DNA of 20,366 nt from a virus: positions 1 through 20,366 of IMG/VR virus record IMGVR_UViG_3300025598_000230; one strand, given 5' to 3'. Within the stretch, counting starts at the first letter, position 1; each line of letters starts with the position of its first letter. The translations under genes were made by a program, and so were the position numbers. Shown piece by piece: positions 6,423 through 6,494 of this stretch. The notes under the pieces are model-generated. The model was not told the origin of the DNA, made no database searches, and saw only the letters and a list, made by a program, of their open reading frames with translations.

Positions 6423-6494
6423 ATGTGGACAAAACCAGCTGCAACAGAAATGAGATTTGGCTTTGAAGTAACTATGTATGTTATGAATAAGTAG
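6423..6494 (+). CDS. pqqA: PqqA-like PQQ precursor peptide
   Basis: A 23-residue peptide that reads as PqqA, the ribosomally made precursor of pyrroloquinoline quinone. In bacteria PqqD presents PqqA to the radical SAM enzyme PqqE, which cross-links a Glu and a Tyr in the EVTxY motif; these two residues become PQQ. The peptide starts MWTKPA, continues [11 protein letters not shown] and ends NK. Glu15 and Tyr19 sit at exactly the cross-linked spacing and at the positions found in 23-residue bacterial PqqA such as that of Klebsiella; the conserved Arg11 and Gly13 are also present. An AGGAG ribosome binding site (6411-6415) lies seven bases before the ATG. Terminators lie on both sides (6299-6324, 6502-6523). 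No other pqq genes are in view, so processing would rely on host PqqB-E. Roles could be boosting PQQ for host dehydrogenases during infection or occupying PqqD/PqqE. It is too short for routine gene callers. Confidence 0.9.
   Translation: [23 protein letters not shown]

Follow-up and report, generated by a model that had tools for sequence, protein, structure and literature searches.

Methylophilaceae (OM43, Methylopumilus, Methylotenera) are major consumers of methanol in lakes and coastal seas, and methanol dehydrogenases need the cofactor pyrroloquinoline quinone (PQQ). One molecule of the precursor peptide PqqA is spent for each PQQ made, while PqqB-E are reusable enzymes. A host gene carried alone is familiar from cyanophages, in which psbA replaces a fast-turning photosystem protein. 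For methylotrophs, the closest described case is the Lake Baikal methylophage VP_266, reported in 2020, which encodes PqqA together with methanol dehydrogenase and for which a boost of the PQQ supply was proposed (PMC7678222); viral pqqA also figures in a list in PMC13188868. Here we analyze a pqqA gene in the IMG/VR virus record IMGVR_UViG_3300025598_000230, the whole 20,366-base stretch of which is referred to below as the window. This gene is probably a real, selected one-gene auxiliary metabolic unit (a 'moron') that supplies the PQQ precursor in a Methylophilaceae phage. PqqA in a phage is not new in itself; its generality across methylophages and the operator shared with the hosts are.

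Identity and conservation of the phage pqqA gene

The frame at 6423-6494 comprises 72 bases and 23 residues, and its translation matched both curated PqqA profiles, Pfam PF08042 (E 6.4e-11, 42.4 bits, cut-off 21.1) and the NCBIfam equivalog TIGR02107 (E 1.8e-10, 40.4 bits, cut-off 20). Both scores are about twice the cut-off, which confirms the PqqA assignment that a first-pass annotation made from the letters alone had proposed when it suggested a search with these profiles. Glu15 and Tyr19, the pair that becomes PQQ, are present at the cross-link spacing (E-x3-Y). PHROGs hold no family for the peptide.

To assess conservation, IMG/VR was searched with two pattern scans using the separate seeds MWTKPA and GFEVTMY, and relatives of the window's capsid gene were scanned in addition. 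The MWTKPA scan, for which Glu15 and Tyr19 lie outside the seed and so played no part in finding the copies, yielded 91 PqqA-like 23-mers among the matches listed, and both residues are kept in all of them; loss of the pair in relatives, which the same annotation had named as a possible objection, was not seen. Across codons 7-23 of these copies, the proportions of synonymous (pS) and nonsynonymous (pN) differences were 0.69 and 0.08, respectively (pN/pS 0.12), and for the window's capsid lineage the ten codons outside both seeds gave a pS of 0.64 and a pN/pS of 0.10. As pS is saturated, the true pN/pS values are lower. The phage pqqA is under purifying selection and, given the profile scores and the conservation of the 91 copies, a chance frame is excluded.

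A search of 50 PqqA-bearing phage records, many of which are fragments, found no PqqE (a single radical-SAM match was weak and generic) and only one record with a PQQ alcohol dehydrogenase. Neither occurs in the six complete phage genomes of this set. Therefore, the phages carry the substrate peptide, with the enzymes left to the host, in line with the earlier expectation that a phage copy would act with host PqqB-E. A peptide that binds the host chaperone and enzyme and comes without a PqqE partner is also what would be expected of a decoy, a role the first-pass annotation had considered, in which phage PqqA occupies PqqD/PqqE, lowers PQQ and starves methanol oxidation. However, loss or change of Glu and Tyr would be expected in a decoy, whereas both are retained along with almost all of the host sequence. 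Moreover, the pairing of pqqA with a PQQ alcohol dehydrogenase in one record and with methanol dehydrogenase in the Baikal phage (PMC7678222) fits supply rather than sabotage, and a decoy appears improbable.

Genes for PqqA and a PQQ-dependent alcohol dehydrogenase were seen together in the 72-kb phage record of L237 (L428, L429), an arrangement like that of the Baikal methylophage.

Occurrence in viral contigs and cultured phages

The three scans, pooled and with three duplicates removed, gave at least 192 PqqA frames in at least 189 distinct viral contigs. Where a contig belongs to the capsid lineage of the window, pqqA mostly follows the capsid gene on its strand at a distance of about 145-300 bases. 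In two contigs (L217, L222), PqqA is of another type and is located 1.4-1.9 kb further from the capsid gene, which suggests separate acquisition. Only 2 of 50 capsid relatives of the window carry PqqA, and in the near relatives the slot contains either other cargo or nothing. On the capsid tree, pqqA presence is clustered (6 changes versus a shuffled mean of 21), and the tree requires several gains or losses, with the window placed among pqqA-less neighbours. Clustering the PqqA loci by at least two proteins shared between the fetched stretches produced 20 components; because this clustering chains mosaic genomes, there are at least that many lineages. The window's own group of 40 loci, Melnitz, and a large component comprising Venkman, P19250A, MEP301, MEP401/402 and the Manatee Spring phage remain separate.

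Further PqqA types occur in the viral contigs L082, L162, L203, L212, L217, L222, L223, L226 and L265; these phages perhaps infect other PQQ-making bacteria. Contig L399 is binned with an uncultured bacterium and has a phage-like pqqA leader; it is probably a phage contig inside a metagenome-assembled genome.

A tblastn search of the window peptide against 50,697 phage records matched 12. Nine belong to Methylophilales/Methylophilaceae phages (Venkman, P19250A, MEP301, MEP401, MEP402 and four Melnitz records), and the remaining three are an uncultured podovirus and two 'Acinetobacter phage MD-2021a' records. Thus, every Methylophilales/Methylophilaceae phage record found (9 of 9) carries pqqA, where 'every' refers to the records found: the taxonomy also names MEP431-434, EXVC038S, MG-MTP1, RSA-MFP1 and phiMB624-A, for which no records were found. 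PqqA queries of the Methylobacterium and Klebsiella types recovered no additional phage records. In 10 of 10 phage records, pqqA is unannotated or overlapped by a hypothetical frame on the opposite strand, so that the earlier warning that gene callers would miss it proved correct. Nothing about a phage pqqA appears in the publications that describe Melnitz, MEP301 and MEP401/402.

The two MD-2021a records are misfiled bacterial contigs with ppk and pqqBCDE (e.g., L304, CAKLQF020000010.1) and were rejected as phages. They show that a database 'phage' with PqqA can be bacterial, and the same could be supposed of the window or its gene. However, the window encodes a portal protein, a GroES-like co-chaperonin, the major head protein, and virion structural and tail proteins, and its capsid gene has relatives in HTVC027P, HTVC023P, CRP-901 and other phages. 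The synteny behind the capsid gene recurs in many related viral contigs, which rejects bacterial contamination of the window, and pqqA is present in complete genomes of cultured phages, which rejects contamination as the source of the phenomenon at large. Contamination is accordingly given next to no weight, and the original assignment of the gene to a phage holds.

Link to Methylophilaceae

Among the matches listed, the 14-residue core of the phage-type peptide was found almost only in assemblies of Methylophilaceae, OM43 and Methylopumilus or in loosely named proteobacterial bins. All 60 sampled Methylophilaceae genomes contain pqqA, with 1-12 copies each, compared with 34 of 232 genomes of the wider class; that Methylophilaceae can hold several copies per genome was already known (PMC4109929). 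The pqqA unit itself suggests that the phage in the window infects a Methylophilaceae methylotroph.

A shared PQQ operator and a leader hairpin

With only the upstream regions of 121 host pqqA genes as input, expectation maximisation gave an operator motif, TCATGAaaTTCATTAG. When the upstream regions of 172 phage pqqA genes were scored with it, 61% exceeded the 99% quantile of random phage windows (Mann-Whitney p ~5e-73). As these loci are phylogenetically non-independent, a matched test of the slot behind the capsid gene weighs more: the operator occurs within 130 bases after the capsid gene in 22 of 34 pqqA-bearing relatives, a few of which are duplicate fetches of one contig, versus 0 of 75 pqqA-less relatives (Fisher p ~9e-15). 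The operator-like site of the window outscores all other positions on both of its strands, and the operator is also present upstream of pqqA in Venkman, P19250A, MEP301, Melnitz and the Manatee phage. This shared operator, the near-exclusive link to Methylophilaceae and the presence of pqqA in every methylophage isolate record found all go beyond the first-pass annotation.

In the hosts, the exact pattern TCATGAWWWTCATKAG is found in 54 of 60 Methylophilaceae genomes and its reversed control in none. Only 7 of 140 wider-class genomes contain it; one of these is the Methylophilaceae reference, and none of the six class-control sites is near pqqA or pqqB. By comparison, 30 of 34 distinct inspected host sites adjoin one of these two genes. 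The motif resembles what would be expected of a PQQ-regulon operator in Methylophilaceae. We found no description of such an operator, and its presence points to an undescribed PQQ regulator. The remaining sites in L458, L460 and L447 are near genes for a pentapeptide-repeat protein and a glycine-zipper-like protein, and L458 and L460 have a Crp/Fnr-like regulator gene nearby.

One further host site precedes a gene for a PqqU-like TonB receptor (PDB YncD/PqqU, E ~1e-81; NCBIfam PqqU, E 2e-105, under the cut-off, with the frame truncated by the end of the locus). Host operators ahead of the PqqU-like receptor gene and of pqqB were noted at L442:1501-3016 and L432:1501-2627. In E. coli, PQQ blocks infection by a PqqU-using phage (PMC12124388), and with a PqqU-like gene behind a pqq operator in one Methylophilaceae genome, it is conceivable that extra PQQ closes this type of outer-membrane receptor to competing phages. 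We consider such superinfection exclusion very improbable: there is no evidence of methylophages using PqqU, and Methylophilaceae produce PQQ anyway.

Directly 5' of the ribosome-binding site, phage and host pqqA copies have leader hairpins that differ in sequence, with a mean z of -1.3 compared with about -0.3 in control windows (p ~1e-12). The simplest reading is that the hairpin would serve as a stabilising 5' stem. An Rfam search of the window's pqqA leader gave no convincing family; the best match (E 0.017) was far under the gathering score and on the opposite strand.

These features also bear on the possibility that a promoter-pqqA-terminator unit is repeatedly picked up as a useless passenger, its conservation reflecting selection in the host. 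The 1-12 copies in hosts (see also PMC4109929), the compactness of the unit and its patchy presence would be compatible with this. However, within one capsid lineage the copies are syntenic while their synonymous sites have diverged (pS 0.64, pN/pS 0.10), the gene is retained by unrelated small-genome lineages and in every methylophage isolate record found, and operator and hairpin persist despite sequence drift. A mere passenger is unlikely, though somewhat less so than a decoy.

Architecture of the locus

The features of the locus are listed in Table 1. On its two sides, pqqA is flanked by the capsid gene and by a 236-aa gene that is the downstream edge of a cargo slot; in many pqqA-less relatives, the counterpart of this 236-aa gene begins about 150-190 bp after the capsid gene.

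Table 1. Features of the pqqA locus in the window.
Feature	Position	Strand	Basis
Major capsid (head) gene, upstream neighbour	5379..6281	+	PHROG 371 major head protein, E 2e-25
Intrinsic terminator after capsid gene, CCCCGC-N9-GCGGGG-TTTTT	6299..6324	+	Read from sequence
pqq operator-like 17-mer, TCATGGTTTTACTTATT	6338..6354	+	Host-derived motif, score 15.4
Putative -10-like box, TATTAT	6375..6380	+	By eye, at position of TATAAT-like box in host pqqA upstreams
5' leader inverted repeat, TTATACACACGGTGTGTATAA, predicted RNA hairpin	6385..6405	+	Perfect 10-bp arms, 1-nt spacer
Shine-Dalgarno AGGAG	6411..6415	+	Sequence, 7 nt 5' of ATG
pqqA	6423..6494	+	PqqA profiles, homologues
Intrinsic terminator of pqqA, AGGGGCTTTTAGCCCCT and T-rich tail	6502..6524	+	Terminator scan
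Next gene, 236 aa, no family match	6641..7351	+	

The terminator behind the capsid gene has a 9-nt loop, slightly above the limit of the terminator scanner, and near relatives also have a GC hairpin and a T-run after the capsid gene. A sigma-70 consensus scan of the window found no promoter on the + strand and no -35-like match near pqqA. With terminators on either side, the operator, the putative -10-like box and a ribosome-binding site, the pqqA unit appears to be self-contained and separable from both neighbours. Since the capsid gene is followed by a terminator and pqqA has a promoter-like region with an operator of its own, late co-expression of the two, and with it the supply in late infection first envisaged, is unsupported. 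Instead, the arrangement points to transcription by the host RNA polymerase from early on.

Two neighbouring features were noted. A GroES-like co-chaperonin gene (2610-3050, PHROG 3188) lies between the portal and the scaffold-region genes. The leader of the 236-aa gene (about 6573-6632, core 6588-6602) is strongly conserved among capsid relatives, with invariant CTGGG...CCCAG and ATGCAA...TTGCAT pairs adjoining the Shine-Dalgarno sequence and a third stem that, by eye, appears to covary. This leader is a candidate pseudoknotted cis-regulatory RNA; an Rfam search returned no family for it.

Discussion

In the mechanism we propose, the host RNA polymerase, aided by the host regulator of the PQQ pathway, would start at the promoter with the operator and make a short, separate message of ~140 nt, and host PqqD/PqqE, which would cross-link the peptide, and PqqB/PqqC would convert it to PQQ. 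As only PqqA is consumed one-for-one with the product, it would be the part that runs short once host expression stops, and after phage shut-off the phage copy would replace it. The supplied PqqA may thereby keep methanol dehydrogenase loaded with its cofactor and energy flowing during infection, to the benefit of the phage, like psbA in cyanophages. One methylotroph that produces PQQ carries five copies of pqqA, with high expression of only some, and PqqB-D are regarded by the authors as reusable or rate-limiting elements (PMC9851590).

Several observations weigh against this reading. The hosts already hold several pqqA copies, and no tRNA or other independent host marker was found in the window. 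The nearest relatives of the window (capsid 94-96% identical) have no pqqA, so that either the gene is dispensable in this lineage or the pqqA-less relatives infect other hosts. Furthermore, 39% of the phage copies do not reach the operator score set by the 99% control quantile, and MEP401/402 have no good operator score.

On balance, we lean slightly towards the broader view that pqqA carriage is a near-universal mark of Methylophilaceae phages, that unrelated lineages independently acquired or exchanged the gene with the operator of the host PQQ regulon and so sustain the cofactor of host methanol oxidation during infection, and that these phages are a hidden control on aquatic methanol turnover. 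If phages routinely supply PqqA, an overlooked 72-base gene would be a shared metabolic lever and a marker for assigning the hosts of methylophages in metagenomes, and the idea would be directly testable with cultured phage-host pairs. More generally, short-peptide genes slip past the annotation of phage metabolic genes.

The window gene resembles the Methylophilaceae-type PqqA of the hosts (PF08042/TIGR02107) in length, sequence, the Glu/Tyr pair and the operator-bearing promoter, and the hosts, too, hold stand-alone copies; it differs in its location in a phage structural region without pqqBCDE. With VP_266 it shares the encoding of PqqA by a Methylophilaceae phage; however, VP_266 is T4-like and carries methanol dehydrogenase and other metabolic genes (PMC7678222), whereas in the window PqqA is the sole PQQ/methanol gene seen and the capsid lineage is unrelated and podovirus-like. 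Like cyanophage psbA and other auxiliary metabolic genes, it is a lone host gene whose product would be quickly spent in infection, but this product is a 23-aa ribosomal cofactor precursor under a host-type operator. Finally, the unit is similar to phage morons in its terminator, its position between phage genes and its patchy occurrence, and the putative promoter would be a further likeness; it differs from them in that its predicted product is a metabolic peptide, whereas morons encode virulence factors or factors of the host surface.
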